From Thermoplasmatota archaeon (lineage in GTDB: Archaea > Thermoplasmatota > Thermoplasmata > UBA10834), in assembly GCA_016930135.1 (NCBI GenBank), contig JAFGHM010000056.1, positions 1 to 34,754 on the forward strand: a DNA stretch of 34,754 bases, read 5' to 3'. Position numbers and translations under genes: made by a program. This document shows, in pieces, positions 15,942-34,754 of this stretch. The notes under the pieces are model-generated. The model was not told the origin of the DNA, did no database searches, and saw only the letters and a program-made list of their open reading frames with translations. Each line of letters starts with the position of its first letter. Position 1 is the stretch's first letter.

Positions 15942-17060
15942 CTACTTCCTCTTGAGATCCGAGACCACAGCCTCTCCCATCTGCGCAGTAGTCGACTTCC
16001 CGCCCATGTCCGGCGTTCTCGTGTCCCCTCTTCGGAGAACCGACTTGACCGCTTCCTCGAGATCCGTTGCCGCCTTCTCATGGCCAAGCGTTTCGAGCAT
16101 CAGCGCGACCGATAGCATCGCGCCTATCGGGTTGGCCATCCCCTTCCCGGCTATGTCCGGTGCAGAGCCATGAACGGGTTCGAACATGCTCACGCCCGCA
16201 GGGTTGATGTTGCCGGACGGGGCGAGCCCAAGGCCACCCTGGAGCGCGGCGCCAAGGTCTGTCAGGATGTCTCCGAACATGTTAGGGGTAACGAGCACCT
16301 TGAAGCGCTCGGGGTTCCTCACCATGTGCAGCGCGACCGCATCCACGTACTGGAACTCCTTGGCGACGGCGTGCTTCGCGGATACCTCCTCGACCATCTC
16401 CCTCCAGAGGCCGTAGGCCTCGGTGAGTACATTCGCCTTGTCGACCGCCGTCACGAGACCCAGGCCCTTCCTCTCTGCCAGCTGGAAGGCGAACTCTATC
16501 ACCCTCCTAGCCCCGGTTTTGGAGACGACGCCCATCTGGTAGGCGAGGTCGTCCTCGTCCTCGAGCTCCACTCCCACATCGAACTTCGCCTCGTAGGCGC
16601 GTCTCTTCAGGTCGAACGAGTTGCTCGAGAGCCCCTTCTTGACCCTCGCGCCGATGCCGACATAGAAATCCTCGGTGTTCTCCCTCACGAAGGTCATGTC
16701 GATCCTCTTGGAGTCGGCCAGCGGAGAGGGCACGCCCTCGTAGAGCTTGACCGGCCTCAGGTTCACATATTGGTCGAAGTGGAACCTGAGCCTCAGGAGC
16801 ACGCCCTTCTCGAGCAGTCCTGGTTTGACCCTAGGGTCGCCCATCGCACCAAGAAGTATGGCGTTCTTCTTCGAGAGCCTCTGGAGAGTCTCCTCCGATA
16901 GCACCTCCCCCGTGTCGAGATAGTGCGCAGTGCCCAGCGGGAACTCCTCGTATTCGAACTCGAGGCCGTGCATCTCCGATACGATGTCAAGGGCTTTCCT
17001 GGCCTCTCGTATGACCTCGGGACCGATGCCGTCTCCTGGTATCACTCCTATCTTCTGCAA
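15942..17060 (-). CDS. leuB: 3-isopropylmalate dehydrogenase
   Basis: [25 protein letters not shown]...; [69 protein letters not shown]. Confidence 0.93.
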
Positions 17061-17545
17061 CCCAACATCTCCTTGGTGTATGGAATGAGACCGCCCTTCT
17101 CGACAACCATCATCACGAAAGGCGGATACGAAGCGAAGGATCCGCTCTCACCCGTCGATTCGTTCCTGAGGGACCCGTTCGAGAGGTCCACGACCATGAC
17201 TTCGCCATCCTTCGCCTTGAGGCGCGCCTCGATGACCGGAAGGCCGATGTTGATCGCGTTCCTGAAGAATATCCGGGCGAAGGACTCGGCGACCACGCAC
17301 GAGATCCCCGCTCCCATGAGCGCCCTGGGCGCGTGCTCCCGGCTAGAGCCGCAGCCGAAGTTGCGCCCCGCGACGACGATGTCCTCTCTCGCGACCCCCT
17401 TGGCGAACTCCGGCCTGGCCTTCTCGAACGCATGCTTGGCCAGCTCCCGGTTGTCCATAGTGACGAGGTACTCCGCTGGGATTATCTGGTCGGTGTCGAC
17501 GTTGTCCCCGAATGTCCAGGCTCTCCCCCTGAGCACGCCCTTCAC
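17048..17545 (-). CDS. leuD: 3-isopropylmalate dehydratase small subunit
   Basis: VKGVLRGRAWTFGDNVDTDQIIPAEYL...VAGRNFGCGSSREHAPRALMGAGISCVVAESFARIFFRNAINIGLP. GTG start overlaps the leuC TGA (GTGA); the 3' end overlaps the leuB start. Confidence 0.95.
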   Translation of the reverse strand: MKGVLRGRAWTFGDNVDTDQIIPAEYLVTMDNRELAKHAFEKARPEFAKGVAREDIVVAGRNFGCGSSREHAPRALMGAGISCVVAESFARIFFRNAINIGLPVIEARLKAKDGEVMVVDLSNGSLRNESTGESGSFASYPPFVMMVVEKGGLIPYTKEMLGCRR

Positions 17546-18804
17546 CGTGCCACCTCCGACGGGTCTGCTATGCGTCCCTTGATCGCACTGGCCGCAACGA
17601 CGGCAGGACTGGCAAGGTAGACTTCGGAGTCCCTCGCGCCCATCCTGCCTACGAAGTTGCGGTTGGTGCTGCTGACGCACCTCTCTCCTGGTGCGAGCAC
17701 GCCCATGTAGCCTCCGAGGCACGCGCCGCATGTGGGTCCGGATATGTACGCCCCGGCATCGGAGAACACCTTCATCAGGCCCTCCTTGACCGCTCTGTCG
17801 AAGACGTCCTTTGTTGCCGGCACGACTATCATCCTGACGCCCTTGCGTATCCTCCTTCCCCTGAGCAGCCTCGCGGCCACCCTGAGGTCCTCTATGCGTC
17901 CGTTCGTGCACGACCCGAGGTAGGCCTGGTCTATGGGCACGCTCACTTCGCTGGCAGGTACGACGTTGCTGGGCAAGTAGGGCTTCGCCACCATGGGAAC
18001 GATATCGCTTCCGTCGTACTCTCTGACGTCCGCGTAGGTGGCATCTCGGTCCGCGAAGACGGCCTTATACCTCCCCCTGACCCTGTCCTCGAGATAGGAG
18101 TCCACCTTCTTGTCGGGCGGGATGATGCACGCTTTCGCACCTGCCTCGATGCCCATGTTCGAGATCGTGATTCTGTCAGAGACCGCCAGGGAGGATATGG
18201 AGCTGCCCTCGACCTCCATGGAAGCGTACCTCGCCCCCTCCACCCCGATGTCCCCTATGATCGTGAGTATGATGTCCTTTCCAGAAACGTGCTTCCCCAG
18301 CCTGCCGTCCACCACGAACCTCATGGATTCGGGCACCTTGAACCAGAGCACGCCCCGCGCGAAGACCGTCGCAGCCTCCGTGCTCCCGATGCCGGCGGCG
18401 AAGGCTCCTAGCGCGCCGTACGAGCATGTGTGCGAGTCCGCCCCTACGATCAGCCTTCCAGGTGCGACGAAGCCCCTCTCTATCATGAGCTGGTGACACA
18501 CACCGCCATCGCCGACTTCGAAGTAGTTCTTCACCTTGTGCTTACTGGCGAAGTCGCGCATCTTCTTCGCCTGGATGGCCGAAGCGACGTCCTTGTTGGG
18601 CACATAGTGGTCGGGTATCAGGACGACCTTGTTCCTCTTGATGGGGGAGCAGAGGCCGTCGAACTCGTCGAACGCCGCCGGGCCGGTGATGTCATTGACC
18701 ATCACGTAGTCGACCTCGGCCTCGACAATCTCTCCAGCACTCACGCTCTTCTTGGCCTTGGCTGACAGAATCTTCTCGGCTAATGTCCTTCCCAAAGAGC
18801 ACAC
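17542..18804 (-). CDS. leuC: 3-isopropylmalate dehydratase large subunit
   Basis: GRTLAEKILSAKAKKSVSAGEIVEAEVDYVMVNDITGPAAF...; GRLIVGADSHTCSYGALGAFAAGIGSTE; YLGSCTNGRIEDLRVAARLL; GPTCGACLGGYMGVL. GTG start assumed at 18804. Confidence 0.94.
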   Translation of the reverse strand: MCSLGRTLAEKILSAKAKKSVSAGEIVEAEVDYVMVNDITGPAAFDEFDGLCSPIKRNKVVLIPDHYVPNKDVASAIQAKKMRDFASKHKVKNYFEVGDGGVCHQLMIERGFVAPGRLIVGADSHTCSYGALGAFAAGIGSTEAATVFARGVLWFKVPESMRFVVDGRLGKHVSGKDIILTIIGDIGVEGARYASMEVEGSSISSLAVSDRITISNMGIEAGAKACIIPPDKKVDSYLEDRVRGRYKAVFADRDATYADVREYDGSDIVPMVAKPYLPSNVVPASEVSVPIDQAYLGSCTNGRIEDLRVAARLLRGRRIRKGVRMIVVPATKDVFDRAVKEGLMKVFSDAGAYISGPTCGACLGGYMGVLAPGERCVSSTNRNFVGRMGARDSEVYLASPAVVAASAIKGRIADPSEVAR

Positions 18805-18827: not shown

Positions 18828-20468
18828 TCAGTAGGCCTTCTTGTTTGTCCCGCCGTTCGAGGCGCTGAGCTTCCGCGCCCAAAGCCTGTTGAGTCCCTCG
18901 ACCATGGCGTCCACGCTCGTGGTGACTATGTCCGAGCCGACGCTCTTCCCGAGCGAGAGCAGCTGGGCGTCCTCGCTGTCGCCGAGCTTCACGGTCACCT
19001 CGCAGAGCGCGTTCGAGCCACCCGTGATGGCCTCGAGCCTGAACTCCTTGAGGACGATGTTCTTCGACACGGCCGTCCTCATGGCGCTCATGCTAGCGTC
19101 TATGGGACCGACGCCCGTCTCGGACGACCTTCTCGTCTCACCGTCTATGCTCAGGACGACCGTAGCGGTCGGGGTGAAGTTGAGGCCCGTGAAGACCGTG
19201 AACTCCTCCAGCCTGATCGCGGGCTCGTCCTCCTGGCCTATCACGTCGTAGGCGACGGCCAGCAGCTCGGCATCGTCCAGCTTCTTGCCGGATTCGGCCC
19301 ATTTCTTGACCCGTGTGACGACCTCCTTCATCTGGTCGCGGTTCAGCTCGAGCCCGTACTCCTTCAGCTTGTTGTCGACCGCGTGCACGCCCGAGTGCTT
19401 CCCGACCACGAAGGTCCTCTCCTTGCCGACAAGCTCGGGACGCATCGGCTCGTATGTCGAGGACTCGCTCAGGACGCCGTGGACGTGTATACCCGCCTCG
19501 TGCGAGAACGCGTTCTCGCCCACTATCGCCTTGTTCGGCTGCACGGCGATTCCAGTGAGCTGCGAGACGAGCCTGGAGACGAACGCCATCTTGCGCGAGT
19601 TGATGTTGGTCTTCACGTTGTAGAACGCCTCGAGCCCCATGACGACCTCCTCGAGGGCGGCGTTGCCCGCCCTCTCTCCAAGGCCGTTGATGGTGCAGTG
19701 TATCTCCTCTGCGCCTCCGAGCACCCCTGCGAGTGAATTGGCCACTGAGAGCCCGAAGTCGTCATGACAGTGGACCGCAAGGGGCACCTTGATGGTCTTC
19801 TTGATCTCAGCGACGAACTGCTGCATTGCATGTGGGGTCATCACGCCGACCGTGTCCGGGATGTCTATCCTGTCCGTTCCAGCCTCCTCGACCGCCCTGT
19901 GGACCACACTGAGGTATCCGAGGTCTGTCCTGGTGCCGTCCTCGCAGCTGAACTCGACCACGAGCCCGTGGTCCTTGGCGTACTGCACTGCGGCAGATGC
20001 CTTGTCCCTCGCCTCATCCTGGGTGAGCTTCAGCTTCTTCTCGAGGTGCACCTTCGAGGTCGCCAGGAATATGTGGACCGAATCGACGTCCGCCTTCAGG
20101 GCGGCGTCTATGTCCGCCGGGTTGGCCCTGCACAGGCCGCATATCTCCGCCTTCAGGCCAGCTCCGGCTATCTTCTTCACAGCCTCGGCTTCGCCCTCGG
20201 AGTTGATGGGGAAGCCCCCCTCGATTATGTCCACCCCCAGCTCGTCCAGGGCCTGGGCGATCTTCACCTTGTCGTCGCTCGACAAGGCCACGTTCGGTGT
20301 CTGCTCCCCGTCCCTCAGGGTCGTGTCCAGGATCTTGACCCTCTCGGGCATCCTGGTCGCCCTGAATATCTGCATGTTGTATTCGCTGACGAAGAGCCCC
20401 CTGTCCGGTATCCTGAAGGCTGGTTCCGCCGTATCTGCGGCACTCTCACTCGGAGTTTGTGTTGGCAT
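18828..20468 (-). CDS. leuA: 2-isopropylmalate synthase / LeuA-CimA family
   Basis: MPERVKILDTTLRDGEQTPNVALSSDDKVKIAQALDELGVDIIEGGFP...; HCHDDFGLSVANSLAGVLGGAEEIHCTINGLGERAGNAALEEVVM; C-terminal regulatory domain. ATG 20468 preferred over TTG 20495. Confidence 0.93.
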   Translation of the reverse strand: MPTQTPSESAADTAEPAFRIPDRGLFVSEYNMQIFRATRMPERVKILDTTLRDGEQTPNVALSSDDKVKIAQALDELGVDIIEGGFPINSEGEAEAVKKIAGAGLKAEICGLCRANPADIDAALKADVDSVHIFLATSKVHLEKKLKLTQDEARDKASAAVQYAKDHGLVVEFSCEDGTRTDLGYLSVVHRAVEEAGTDRIDIPDTVGVMTPHAMQQFVAEIKKTIKVPLAVHCHDDFGLSVANSLAGVLGGAEEIHCTINGLGERAGNAALEEVVMGLEAFYNVKTNINSRKMAFVSRLVSQLTGIAVQPNKAIVGENAFSHEAGIHVHGVLSESSTYEPMRPELVGKERTFVVGKHSGVHAVDNKLKEYGLELNRDQMKEVVTRVKKWAESGKKLDDAELLAVAYDVIGQEDEPAIRLEEFTVFTGLNFTPTATVVLSIDGETRRSSETGVGPIDASMSAMRTAVSKNIVLKEFRLEAITGGSNALCEVTVKLGDSEDAQLLSLGKSVGSDIVTTSVDAMVEGLNRLWARKLSASNGGTNKKAY

Positions 20469-20571
20469 GCCAAAACGCTCCCAAAAATCCAACACTGAGC
20501 GTTCAGGCTAGGAGAAGCAGCCCCAAGGGCAGAATAATCAGCTCGTTGCTCTTGTTGGCCATTCCTAGCCT
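20459..20571 (-). promoter_or_regulatory. Putative leu attenuator with overlapping inverted repeats
   Basis: Minus strand: AGGCTAGGA/TCCTAGCCT (20563-20571 with 20505-20513); AACGCTC/GAGCGTT (20497-20503 with 20474-20480); GTGTTGG/CCAACAC (20489-20495 with 20459-20465); palindrome TTGGCATGCCAA (20462-20473) over the leuA ATG. Confidence 0.55.
20503..20562 (-). CDS. Putative leader peptide (uORF) of the leu operon: MANKSNELIILPLGLLLLA
   Basis: ATGGCCAACAAGAGCAACGAGCTGATTATTCTGCCCTTGGGGCTGCTTCTCCTAGCCTGA, with AGGAGG 6 nt upstream of the ATG. 7 Leu and 2 Ile in 19 codons, four Leu consecutive. Lies between the leuA promoter and the leuA ATG. Confidence 0.7.
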   Translation of the reverse strand: MANKSNELIILPLGLLLLA

Positions 20572-20630
20572 CCTCGTTCAGTGGGCGCACGCATGTCTCA
20601 GCGTGTCAATACTCCTCATGGCCTCGCGTG

Positions 20631-20638
20631 ATATAAAC
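20631..20638 (-). promoter_or_regulatory. TATA box of leuA operon
   Basis: Minus strand gTTTATATca. A start site about 25 nt downstream (near 20607) would leave a roughly 45-nt leader before the uORF. Confidence 0.5.
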
Positions 20639-20760
20639 TTTTGCGGCATTGGGCCAGCTGGCCTATCGTGCAGGGTGGTGGACAGATGTGTACACCGACC
20701 GTGTCCGTCCGCCGTGAGAAGGTTAGAAATACCTTGTTTCGGGTACGGCGCGTGATACGC

Positions 20761-21591
20761 TTGAGCAAGGATGTGCTCGTCGGATTCCAGGGTGTTCGAG
20801 GCGCCTACTCGGAGGATGCGTGCTTCAAGTACTTCGGGAAGGACATCAAGACACTCCCGTTGCCGGACTTCAGCTCGGTGTTCGAGGCAGTCGAGAAGGA
20901 CAAGGTGACGCATGCTGTCGTACCGATCGAGAACTCGACCGAGGGGAGCGTCGCGCAGGTGAACGACCTGCTGCTGGATCATGACCTCTCCATCTCGGGG
21001 GAGGTAATAGTCCCGGTCAAGCATGCACTCCTGGCTTATGACGACGCGACCGTTGACACGATCCGCGAGGTCCTCAGCCACCCACAGGCTCTCGGCCAGT
21101 GCAGGAAGTTCCTCTCGAACCATCCGGGATGGCGTCTGACCCCGGCATACGACACTGCGGGGAGTGCGGGCATAGTCTCGGAGGCGAAGAGAGTTGATCT
21201 CGCGGCCATAGCCAGCGTGAGGGCCGCCGGTGTATACGGCCTCAAGGTGCTCAAGGAGGACATCCAGAGCGAGACGGAGAACTACACGCGCTTCTTCGTC
21301 CTCGAGAAGAACCCGAGTCCTGTCCAAGGGGCAGACAAGACCTCGATGGTCTTCGCAGCGAAGAACGTGCCGGGCGCGCTTCACAGGTGCCTGGGCGAGT
21401 TCGCATCGAGGAATGTCAACTTGACCAAGCTCGAGTCGAGGCCGAGGAGGAGCAAGCCCTGGGTATACGTCTTCTACGCGGACTTCGAGGGCAGCATAGA
21501 CGAGCCGAACTGCCATGCCGCGATCGGAGGGCTGATCAAGACCGCCGCCTTCGTGAAGATACTAGGTTCGTACAAGAAGGCCACACCCTGA
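20761..21591 (+). CDS. pheA: Prephenate dehydratase (with ACT domain)
   Basis: VLVGFQGVRGAYSEDACFKYFG...VVPIENSTEGSVAQVNDLLL...TAGSAGIVSEAKRVDLAAIASVRAAGVYGLKVLKEDIQSETENYTRFFVL; ACT motif LTKLESRPRRSKPWVYVFYADFEG. Start TTG 20761 or GTG 20752. Confidence 0.94.
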   Translation: MSKDVLVGFQGVRGAYSEDACFKYFGKDIKTLPLPDFSSVFEAVEKDKVTHAVVPIENSTEGSVAQVNDLLLDHDLSISGEVIVPVKHALLAYDDATVDTIREVLSHPQALGQCRKFLSNHPGWRLTPAYDTAGSAGIVSEAKRVDLAAIASVRAAGVYGLKVLKEDIQSETENYTRFFVLEKNPSPVQGADKTSMVFAAKNVPGALHRCLGEFASRNVNLTKLESRPRRSKPWVYVFYADFEGSIDEPNCHAAIGGLIKTAAFVKILGSYKKATP

Positions 21592-31123: not shown

Positions 31124-32572
31124 TCAGGCCTTCCCAGCTCTCCTCTTCAGGAGTGCCTTCGATGTCTCAGCGACCTCGCCACCGACGGGCTCCACGCTGT
31201 GCTCCTTGAGAATCCTTCTGACCTCTTCTCCGGCCCTGTCCAGGATGGACTTCCTTCCGCGAGACACCCACGCGTCGAACGAGGAGCGGTCCGACACAAT
31301 GGGCATGAAATGCTCCCCTCTGAAATGTTCCATTGTGTGCCTCTGCCCGAGGTAGTCCCTCCCCACTCCTACCGCGTTGATGACATCAAGCGCAAGCGAC
31401 TCCTCGTCCACATCTATGCCCCTGACGATTCGCCCGATGATCTCTGATATCTCGCTGTCTATGACCAACTGCTCCAGCCAGACTGTCCTGCAGTCCTCGA
31501 GCAGCCCTATGCCCGCGATCATATCTGCACCGGCCATGATGGGCACGATTGCGCTGGCGAACTTGTCATAGGCGGCCTGCTCGTCGGGTTCCTTAGCTGT
31601 AGTGACGAAGCCTCCGACGAGCGCGGGAAAGCCGTAGTGATGGGCCATCTGCGCGAACGCAGCGGAGGTCAGCCCGTGCTCCGGGCTTCCGCCCGCCCTT
31701 GTCGAGGTCTTCATGTCGAGGTTGGCCATGCCACAGCTGAAAACAAATGCCGTCCCCGGCCGGTGCAACTGGATGACCGTATTGCCTGCCAGTGCTTCGG
31801 CGATCCCGACGGCGACCGAGCCAGCAAGCGTCGCGGGTCCCGTTGCGCCCGGCCCGGGCATCACGTAGAAGCAGATGGGTATCCCAGCGTCTGCGGCAGC
31901 AAGGCCCGCCTCGAGGCCTTCGCCCTCGATGACGAGGGGTGATGAGCTGGTGTGTATGGATGAGATGATGGGCCTCTTCCTCAGCTCTTCGCGTCCGCCC
32001 ACAGCAGCGGCTGCGAGCTCGATTACGTCCCCAACCTCCCAGCTCGTCGTATTGGTGGCGAGGGTGATGTGCTTCTCCGTGTTCTCAAGAGACGCCTGCA
32101 GATCATGTATGTGTCTCGTCCGCTGGGGCACGTCCTGCGACGTCACGTTCGGCCAGTTCACGCCATGGCCTCTCAGCGCATCGGCGACGAATGCGCTCCT
32201 GGCCACGTCGGCCCTCGTTGACTCCCTGCGCTGTCGCGTCTCGAAGTCCATGGCCTCGGTGCCGTTGCCGTCGCTGCAGACGTGGACATGGTCGAAGTCC
32301 AGGTGTGCGTCGTGCTTCTTCGTCCTGCCGTACAGTGTGACGGCCCGATCGTTCTTCCGAGCCATCTCCTCAACGAGAGTCGGAGGGAATCTCACGACCG
32401 CACTTTTCTCGTCCACCTCGCAACCAGCATCACGAAGCAGTTTCTGCACCTTTTCGCTCCGAACAGCAACTCCTGTGACTTCCAGGATCTCCAGCGCGGC
32501 ATACCTGATCTTCAGCACGCCCGCATTGTCGAGGACGTTCCGCCTGCAACGGACCGGAATACAGTTCGCCAT
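31124..32572 (-). CDS. MttB (trimethylamine methyltransferase) superfamily protein, no in-frame amber codon
   Basis: LKIRYAALEILEVTGVAVRSEKVQKLLRDAGCEVDEKSAVVRFPPTLVEEMARK...; TRAGGSPEHGLTSAAFAQMAHHYGFPALVGG; GRDYLGQRHTMEHFRGEHFMP. Confidence 0.9.
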   Translation of the reverse strand: MANCIPVRCRRNVLDNAGVLKIRYAALEILEVTGVAVRSEKVQKLLRDAGCEVDEKSAVVRFPPTLVEEMARKNDRAVTLYGRTKKHDAHLDFDHVHVCSDGNGTEAMDFETRQRRESTRADVARSAFVADALRGHGVNWPNVTSQDVPQRTRHIHDLQASLENTEKHITLATNTTSWEVGDVIELAAAAVGGREELRKRPIISSIHTSSSPLVIEGEGLEAGLAAADAGIPICFYVMPGPGATGPATLAGSVAVGIAEALAGNTVIQLHRPGTAFVFSCGMANLDMKTSTRAGGSPEHGLTSAAFAQMAHHYGFPALVGGFVTTAKEPDEQAAYDKFASAIVPIMAGADMIAGIGLLEDCRTVWLEQLVIDSEISEIIGRIVRGIDVDEESLALDVINAVGVGRDYLGQRHTMEHFRGEHFMPIVSDRSSFDAWVSRGRKSILDRAGEEVRRILKEHSVEPVGGEVAETSKALLKRRAGKA

Positions 32573-32679
32573 CGGGTCTCACTCCTCTGTGCCTGTTCTG
32601 CCGCAGCGAAGGATAGATTGGAGGTCTGAAGAGACCATGTTCAGACCGGCCGCATCCGCAGGGCCGGCCAGCGATGGTC

Positions 32680-34152
32680 CTAGTCCCTCTTGGTCTCGCC
32701 ACCCCACATCGGCTTCTTTGCCTTCTCGATGACGGCGTCGACCCTCTTCTGAGTGTCCGCATCCAAGGGCGGGACCCTGTGATTCTCCAGGATCCATCTG
32801 GTCTTCTCCCTTGCCTTGTCCACAAGGCTCTTGGAGCCGCTCGCGGACCACGCGTCGAAGGAGCGTCTGTCTATCAGGTCAGGCATGAAGTGCTCCCCCG
32901 CCCTGAGGTGCTGCATCGTGTGCTTCTGGGCAAGGAAGTTCTTGCCGACTCCGACCTTCTCGATTATGTCCAGGGCCATTGTGTCGTCGTCCGCCCATTC
33001 GCCCCTTATGAGCCTTGCAATCGAGCCGACGATCTCGTTGTCGATCACTATCTGCTCGTAGAAGAGGCAGCTGGAATCCTCGAGTAGGCCCACACCGCAC
33101 ATCAGGTCCGCACCGGCCAGCAGGGGACCGACGCATCCTGTGTAGTACTCGAGTACGGCCTGGTCCCCGGGCACCTTCGCGGTAGCGGATACGCCCACGC
33201 AAGAAGGCATCCCGTAGTAGTGCGCCAACTCCGTCGCTATGGCGCTCGAGATTGCGTGCTCAGGGCTGCCCCCGGCCCTGATCGTAGTGCGCATGTCCAG
33301 GGGCGCATTGCCCATGCCGTATATCACCGCAGAGCCGGGAGCGTGCAGCTGAGTCATCACGAGGGCGCTGAGCACCTCCGCGTTGCCGACCACGAGCGAG
33401 CCCACGAGGGTCACTGGGCCGGTCGCGCCGGGCTGAGGCATGCCAAAGAACACGAGCGGCACGCCGTGCTCGGCAAAGTAGAGGCTCGCGTCCATTACTC
33501 CCGCGTCGTGCTGCAGGGGAGCATAGGTGCACTGGAGGCACGAATGTATCGGCCTGTGCCTGAACTCCTTCTCCCCTCCCGCGGCGATGTAGCCGATCTC
33601 CGTGAGGTGCTTCGCGTCGCTGAGAGTCACGCCCGTCTCGTACATTATGTGCTTCTGGGTGTTGCTCATGGACGCGTCTAGGTCGTGAAGGTGCACGACG
33701 CTCGGATGCTTGTCGGTGGAGCTGACCATCGGCCAGTGTATGTGCACGTTCTGGAGGTAGTCGATGATCCTGGACGAGTCCGCCACATCCTTTTTCGTGG
33801 ACGGCCTCCTCTCGCCAGTCTCGAAATCCACAGCCACAGCGCCATTCCCGTTCGCCGTCATGTAGCTGTGGTCCAGGTCCAGCTTCGCGTCGTACTTCGG
33901 GTCTCTCGCGGCCAATGTGATGGAGGTCTTCTTCTTGGACAGGGCCTCTTCGACAAGGTGCGATGGTATCTTGGCTATCCTCTTGCTCTCGTCCACTTCG
34001 CAGCCGTTGTCCTTCAGGAGCTTCCTGCAGGCGACGCTGTCGACCTGCACGCCGACCTTCTCCAGGATGTGCAGCGTGCCCCAGTGGATCCTGTCGAAAT
34101 CGCTCTCGCTGAGTATTTGGAAGCGGACGCCCCGCTTGATGCCGAAAGCCAT
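32680..34152 (-). CDS. MttB superfamily protein, second paralog, no in-frame amber codon
   Basis: HWGTLHILEKVGVQVDSVACRKLLKDNGCEVDESKRIAKIPSHLVEEALSKKK...; IRAGGSPEHAISSAIATELAHYYGMPSCVG; GVGKNFLAQKHTMQHLRAGEHFMPDLIDRRSFDAW. Confidence 0.92.
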   Translation of the reverse strand: MAFGIKRGVRFQILSESDFDRIHWGTLHILEKVGVQVDSVACRKLLKDNGCEVDESKRIAKIPSHLVEEALSKKKTSITLAARDPKYDAKLDLDHSYMTANGNGAVAVDFETGERRPSTKKDVADSSRIIDYLQNVHIHWPMVSSTDKHPSVVHLHDLDASMSNTQKHIMYETGVTLSDAKHLTEIGYIAAGGEKEFRHRPIHSCLQCTYAPLQHDAGVMDASLYFAEHGVPLVFFGMPQPGATGPVTLVGSLVVGNAEVLSALVMTQLHAPGSAVIYGMGNAPLDMRTTIRAGGSPEHAISSAIATELAHYYGMPSCVGVSATAKVPGDQAVLEYYTGCVGPLLAGADLMCGVGLLEDSSCLFYEQIVIDNEIVGSIARLIRGEWADDDTMALDIIEKVGVGKNFLAQKHTMQHLRAGEHFMPDLIDRRSFDAWSASGSKSLVDKAREKTRWILENHRVPPLDADTQKRVDAVIEKAKKPMWGGETKRD

Positions 34153-34158
34153 CGGAAC

Positions 34159-34754
34159 TCACCCGACCAGTCTCTTGGCTACTTCGACCGCGCCTGATGC
34201 GTCGCCGCTGTAGCCGTCAGCGCCGATCTCCTTCGCGTATGTGTCCGTGACCGGTGCCCCGCCTATTAGGACCTTGACGGCCTTGTTCTTCTGCTTAAGT
34301 GGGGTTATTATGTCTGCCATCCTCGGCATCGTCGTCGTCATGAGAGCGGACATGGCCATCATGGTCGGACCGATCTCATCTGCCTTCTTCAAGAAGTCTG
34401 CGGTCGGGACATTCACGCCGAGGTCAATGACTTCGAAGCCGTTCGAGGAGAGCATCGTTGCCACCAGGTTCTTGCCGATTTCATGGATGTCATCCTGCAC
34501 GGTGCCGATGACAACCTTCCCCGCGCTCGACCGGTGCTGCCCAGAGGGCACGGCGGGCTCGAGTACGGCCAATGCGGCCTTCATCGCCTCTGCGCCCATG
34601 ACGAGCTCGGGTAGGAATATCTCTCCCTTGCCGAACTTCTCACCGACGGTCTTGATTCCTTCCGCCAATCCTTTCTCGATGGCGACGAGAGGATCTATGC
34701 CTTCCTTCAGTGCCTGCTTCGCGAGGTCGGCAATCGATTCCATCTCGTAGTTTA
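34159..34754 (-). CDS. Methyltransferase cognate corrinoid protein (MtbC/MttC type), 5' end probably outside the window
   Basis: KQALKEGIDPLVAIEKGLAEGIKTVGEKFGKGEIFLPELVMGAEAMKAAL...GKVVIGTVQDDIHEIGKNLVATMLSSNGFEVIDLGVNVP (B12-binding DxHxxG). Frame is open upstream to the window edge and the usual N-terminal helix is missing. Confidence 0.9.
   Translation of the reverse strand, partial: NYEMESIADLAKQALKEGIDPLVAIEKGLAEGIKTVGEKFGKGEIFLPELVMGAEAMKAALAVLEPAVPSGQHRSSAGKVVIGTVQDDIHEIGKNLVATMLSSNGFEVIDLGVNVPTADFLKKADEIGPTMMAMSALMTTTMPRMADIITPLKQKNKAVKVLIGGAPVTDTYAKEIGADGYSGDASGAVEVAKRLVG

Follow-up and report, generated by a model that had tools for sequence, protein, structure and literature searches.

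Does the short, leucine-rich open reading frame between the promoter and the first gene of the leu operon in this Thermoplasmatota archaeon encode a leader peptide through which the operon is regulated? A sequence-only reading of the window, by which we mean the whole stretch of 34,754 nucleotides that was analyzed, had proposed that leu biosynthesis is controlled by translation of this upstream open reading frame (uORF). Having compared the locus with its relatives, we consider it likely that the uORF is a leader peptide by which the leu operon gauges leucine supply, a judgment that rests on sequence comparison without transcript, Ribo-seq, or starvation data. The local architecture that had been described, with a 19-codon uORF behind an AGGAGG Shine-Dalgarno (SD) sequence, a TATA box, the leuA ATG, and 34 nt between the leader stop and that ATG, was confirmed in full in the window sequence (Table 1). 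The proposed leuACDB gene order is backed by NCBIfam profiles for leuA, leuC, and leuB, with the identity of leuD resting on recognition by eye only. Also by eye, a prephenate-dehydratase-like gene (20758-21591) lies divergent from the leu operon and has its upstream region in common with it, and positions 31124-34743 hold two long open reading frames resembling MttB-type trimethylamine methyltransferases and one resembling a corrinoid protein.

Table 1. Features of the leu operon and its leader region, with the leaders found elsewhere in the same genome; positions refer to the window unless a locus is given.
Feature	Position	Strand	Basis or remark
TATA box of leu operon promoter, TTTATAT at 20637-20631	20631..20638	-	Sequence; alignment of 18 genomes of the family
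CACUGA, possible 5' arm of uORF-enclosing stem	20578..20583	-	Pairs with UCAGUG 20498-20493; weak
Leader SD, AGGAGG, 6 nt 5' of ATG	20569..20574	-	Sequence
Leader ORF MANKSNELIILPLGLLLLA plus stop, 19 codons	20503..20562	-	Translated sequence and family conservation
Four Leu codons in a row, CTG CTT CTC CTA; rare CTA invariant in family	20509..20520	-	Alignment and codon counts
UCAGUG, possible 3' arm of uORF-enclosing stem	20493..20498	-	Weak
U5 run adjoining leuA SD; possible archaeal terminator element	20483..20487	-	T-run excess in family
leuA SD, GGGAG; GGAG able to pair with CUCC 20455-20452 within leuA	20478..20482	-	Sequence
leuA, 2-isopropylmalate synthase	18828..20468	-	NCBIfam profile
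leuC, 3-isopropylmalate dehydratase large subunit; start approximate	17542..18798	-	NCBIfam profile
leuD, small subunit; start approximate	17048..17545	-	Recognized by eye only
leuB, 3-isopropylmalate dehydrogenase	15942..17060	-	NCBIfam profile
ilvB leader	L129:1357-1443	+	Window's genome, outside window
hisG leader	L183, upstream of hisG	-	Window's genome, outside window

The proposal would have been refuted if relatives with the same operon lacked the uORF or if its codons evolved without coding constraint. Neither refutation holds, because the uORF, its start, its stop position, and its Leu codons are conserved and its length varies by in-frame indels of whole codons. In the window's family (f1; other families are likewise denoted by f numbers), the uORF is found at the same place in all 18 genomes with a full-length leuA, including all 8 of the genus, and it stops at a nearly fixed position 32 to 37 nt 5' of leuA. 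The family consensus is M-x(n)-S-x-GLL-x-LPLGL-[LIR]-[IL]-LA followed by the stop, with LRLGL in one genome and a conserved ending LGL-x-x-LA. The codons CTG CCC TTG GGG and, further on, CTA GCC and the stop are almost fixed, and the CTA GCC preceding the stop is invariant in the family alignment. The run of four different Leu codons on which the proposal had leaned is present in the window but is not a conserved feature, as only 4 of the 18 genomes have four Leu codons in a row. The sister family, whose LeuA is 66% identical, has the leuA leader MDAKRSSASILPLQLLLLLC. Rare Leu codons are enriched in these leaders: TTG, CTT, CTA, and TTA together account for 16% of Leu codons in the window genes versus 50% in the family's leuA leaders, and CTA alone for 2.4% versus 14%, an enrichment that fits tRNA sensing.

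Beyond the family, leuA upstream regions were gathered across the class Thermoplasmata (87 loci, 34 genera) and scored by a fixed rule that required an ATG start, a length of 8 to 30 codons, and at least three Leu within five codons near the end. Such a Leu-cluster uORF was found at 61 of the 87 loci and in 24 of the 34 genera, against a chance expectation of 4.1 loci from dinucleotide shuffles, and at none of 15 control loci upstream of LeuA paralogues. The Leu cluster lies close to the stop in the leaders of f6 (MICNAVIGLLLLLE and MIFAQHAGLLLIG), with Leu at position -3 in 21 of 23 leaders and encoded by several synonymous codons, as well as in those of f20 (MSIIIVDGHGLLRA and MRHNKMICLLLLLH), with Leu at position -4 in 13 of 13. 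We refer to f6 as Methanomassiliicoccales on the basis of two loci (Methanomassiliicoccaceae archaeon and Thermoplasmatales archaeon), both from the one genus of this family in which no leuA leader was seen. Leu-cluster short ORFs also precede leuA in f29, f30, f32, and f33, and two other classes of Thermoplasmatota have the leuA leaders MKNVELATRIGCESLLVLGLVVLVSLISH and MEGNLFPSLLGIVIAFILIL. No leuA leader was seen in f10, f47, or f14, and no convincing ATG-started leader was found at the LeuA-like genes of Methanosarcinaceae.

Leaders with other residues precede other biosynthetic operons. Elsewhere in the genome, ilvB is preceded by a leader some 28 codons long in which Ile, Leu, and Val abound and which each of the family's three genera possesses; in the window's genome the peptide is MREPAGQGGPMPILVVLGVLVDLRILRP, with PILVVLGVLVDLRILRP as its C-terminal end, and related Ile/Leu/Val-rich ilvB leaders are found in f2 (L162, L223) and f20 (L165, L166). 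Before hisG, a 13-codon leader with a fixed His codon is present in all 19 family genomes, and hisG-leader-like peptides also occur in f2, f9, and f10. In the window's genome this leader is MAKAEVVFGCLHG, ending in VVFGCLHG, and its only His codon stands two before the stop. Neither a Trp leader at trpE nor a leader at thrC in the window was found, both genes starting close to their TATA boxes. Other elements were noted in passing: a conserved AGGTTTATCTAACATCTGTGGCG shortly 5' of ilvB in f18 (L221, L222), which could be a short leader ending in RFI or another RNA element; a short ORF before ilvB in f9, MKSVSAPVLSDIGHSAIRSFSVLI (L215, L216; SILI in L216), whose last residues are Val/Ile-Leu-Ile; and a hairpin at the end of the hisG leader ORF, which shifts register between genera.

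That the leader residue follows the pathway at leuA, ilvB, and hisG is hard to explain without amino acid sensing, and we regard this match between leader codon and pathway product as the strongest argument for such sensing. Three marks of a ribosome-mediated leader-peptide attenuator are present: a short ORF with an SD lies between promoter and operon, the cognate codons are over-represented and conserved near the stop, and the residues track the pathway at ilvB and hisG. Leader-peptide, that is, ribosome-mediated, attenuation thus probably exists in Archaea at no fewer than three operons, although no expression data bear on it. Against this reading count the single His codon of the hisG leader and the lineages without a leuA leader (f10, f47, and one genus of f6).

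The mechanism by which the leu leader would act is inferred. We envisage that the uORF is translated, that the ribosome stalls on it, and that stalling switches leuA on. Over the final few codons of the leader, a ribosome would have several Leu codons to read, some of them rare; with charged tRNA-Leu scarce, it would stall at these codons, and with leucine plentiful, it would finish and leave. The stalled ribosome would alter the folding of the leader RNA and so release leuA expression. The original idea of regulation through leader-peptide translation is supported by conservation and by the pathway-matched leaders, but the ribosome-mediated step and its output remain inferences.

Evidence on the output comes from the RNA of f6. 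There, ACCGUC directly 5' of the uORF SD pairs with GACGGU 3' of the stop, with 96.6% of cells paired compared to 51% at most in slid controls; three of the six pairs have changed on both sides, and none of 500 shuffles reached the covariation score. A second hairpin, GGUUUG/CAAACC, closes around the SD and start codon of leuA (100% of cells paired, one double change). The two structures share three columns (95-97) and therefore cannot both form fully, and in this family the region of leuA initiation folds with unusual stability (mean z of -1.44 versus 0.45 and 0.07 in controls). In our inferred reading, frequent initiation on the uORF would block the first stem and leave leuA closed, whereas stalling of the ribosome at the Leu codons would free both arms of the first stem and leuA would open. 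Because the covarying uORF stem of Methanomassiliicoccales overlaps the hairpin that holds the leuA SD and start codon, leuA translation is the most likely output, which is unresolved in the window's own family.

Mutually exclusive structures are thus supported in f6; in the window's family, by contrast, the enclosing stem CACUGA/UCAGUG, which CACUGC/GCAGUG in relatives resembles, was no better than shuffles by energy, and when ribosome footprints were masked in an equilibrium fold, the accessibility of the leuA start did not change consistently. The leuA initiation region of this family has a mean z of -0.73, and the window leader, folded as a single sequence, does not stand out (z of -1.02). 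Pairing of the uORF SD with the end of its own ORF (GGCUAGGA/UCCUAGCC) is visible in the window and was set aside, not being kept in all relatives. At ilvB, a covarying stem lies 3' of the leader.

The same leader could instead act on transcription, the translating ribosome deciding whether RNA polymerase terminates at a U-run just ahead of leuA, either intrinsically at oligo-U or through aCPSF1/FttA. T-runs of at least five between leader and leuA occur at 10 of 18 f1 loci and 11 of 25 f6 loci, with 0.6 and 0.7 expected, and since the window's own family has such a run before leuA, termination remains a live rival there. However, no U-run excess was found in the leuA leaders of f20 or in the ilvB or hisG leaders, and the inferred switch in f6 would act on the leuA start hairpin, leaving transcription attenuation, in our estimate, a possible but doubtful account.

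What the leader senses could also be different. Sequence-specific arrest by the nascent peptide, responding to the free amino acid as in TnaC, SpeFL, and the fungal arginine attenuator peptide rather than to tRNA charging codon by codon, would suit both the strong family-wide conservation of leader peptides and the hisG peptide, which keeps V-x-F-G/D-C/S-L-H with one His and has similar counterparts in f9 and f10. We think this unlikely, given that the leuA leaders of different families have little in common apart from Leu codons 2 to 5 from the end and that the rare-codon enrichment is in keeping with tRNA sensing.

It is less plausible still that the conserved entity is an RNA or DNA regulatory element, either a protein-binding site or a structured RNA, in which the uORF is incidental. 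In the f1 leader core the nucleotides are near-invariant, with third codon positions (0.193) nearly as conserved as first positions (0.145), and since third positions are little freer than first ones, a constraint at the RNA or DNA level overlaps the coding constraint; the same core nucleotides probably double as RNA structure. Across families, however, these nucleotides are not kept, whereas Leu codons, start, and stop are, and the in-frame indels likewise tell against an incidental uORF, as does Rfam, which gave no match in the window at the gathering threshold and nothing relevant among ten leader loci searched at E up to 5. A T-box riboswitch was considered and is ruled against by the absence of a T-box match in the same window and loci. 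A leuA-Halobacteria RNA motif has reportedly been described (Weinberg, in 2017), and its overlap with the leuA leaders is not excluded. Finally, a small membrane peptide with a function outside regulation would account for the hydrophobic character of the leader but is very improbable for a product of only 13 to 21 residues that is unrelated in sequence between families, always lies directly 5' of leuA, and has counterparts matched to their pathways at ilvB and hisG.

Leader peptides that sense amino acid supply have well-known bacterial counterparts. The enterobacterial leu leader (leuL) is a transcription attenuator in which consecutive Leu codons, some of them rare, precede leuA of leuABCD, and the archaeal leader is likewise a short ORF with Leu codons, rare ones among them, directly before leuA. 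In contrast to leuL, it has a TATA promoter and no Rfam match, its Leu codons mostly precede the stop by 1 to 5 codons, and a G+C-rich terminator has not been established; U-runs occur in many families, though not in every one. The residues of the bacterial ilvB/ilvGMEDA and his leader peptides also match the pathway product, as do Ile/Leu/Val at ilvB and His at hisG in the archaeal leaders; bacterial hisL has a run of His codons, whereas the archaeal his leader has a single one, and the peptide sequences are unrelated. The f6 arrangement, where the main gene has its SD and start codon in a hairpin to which another stem is the alternative, in competition with it, resembles translation attenuators of the ermC type, except that the archaeal signal would be amino acid shortage and not an antibiotic, and switching has not been demonstrated. 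The leuA and ilvB attenuators of actinobacteria were likewise supported by comparative-genomics evidence for leader peptides before amino acid operons (PMC1262725), the same kind of evidence as ours but in bacteria.

That such a mechanism was not established in Archaea, as the sequence-only reading had noted, agrees with a 2021 paper (PMC8448881), according to which attenuation was not known in Archaea, and with our own search of the open-access literature, which found no archaeal leader-peptide or ribosome-mediated attenuation, an absence that is not proof. On balance we lean toward the view that Thermoplasmatota control leuA, ilvB, and hisG by translated leaders gauging the cognate aminoacyl-tRNA, probably with the first gene's translation as their target, which would be the first such case in Archaea and either independent in origin or older than thought. 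If this view is true, the set of Leu, Ile/Leu/Val, and His leaders would show that archaea read their amino acid supply through the ribosome, and the question at the level of the domain becomes directly testable in cultured Methanomassiliicoccales.
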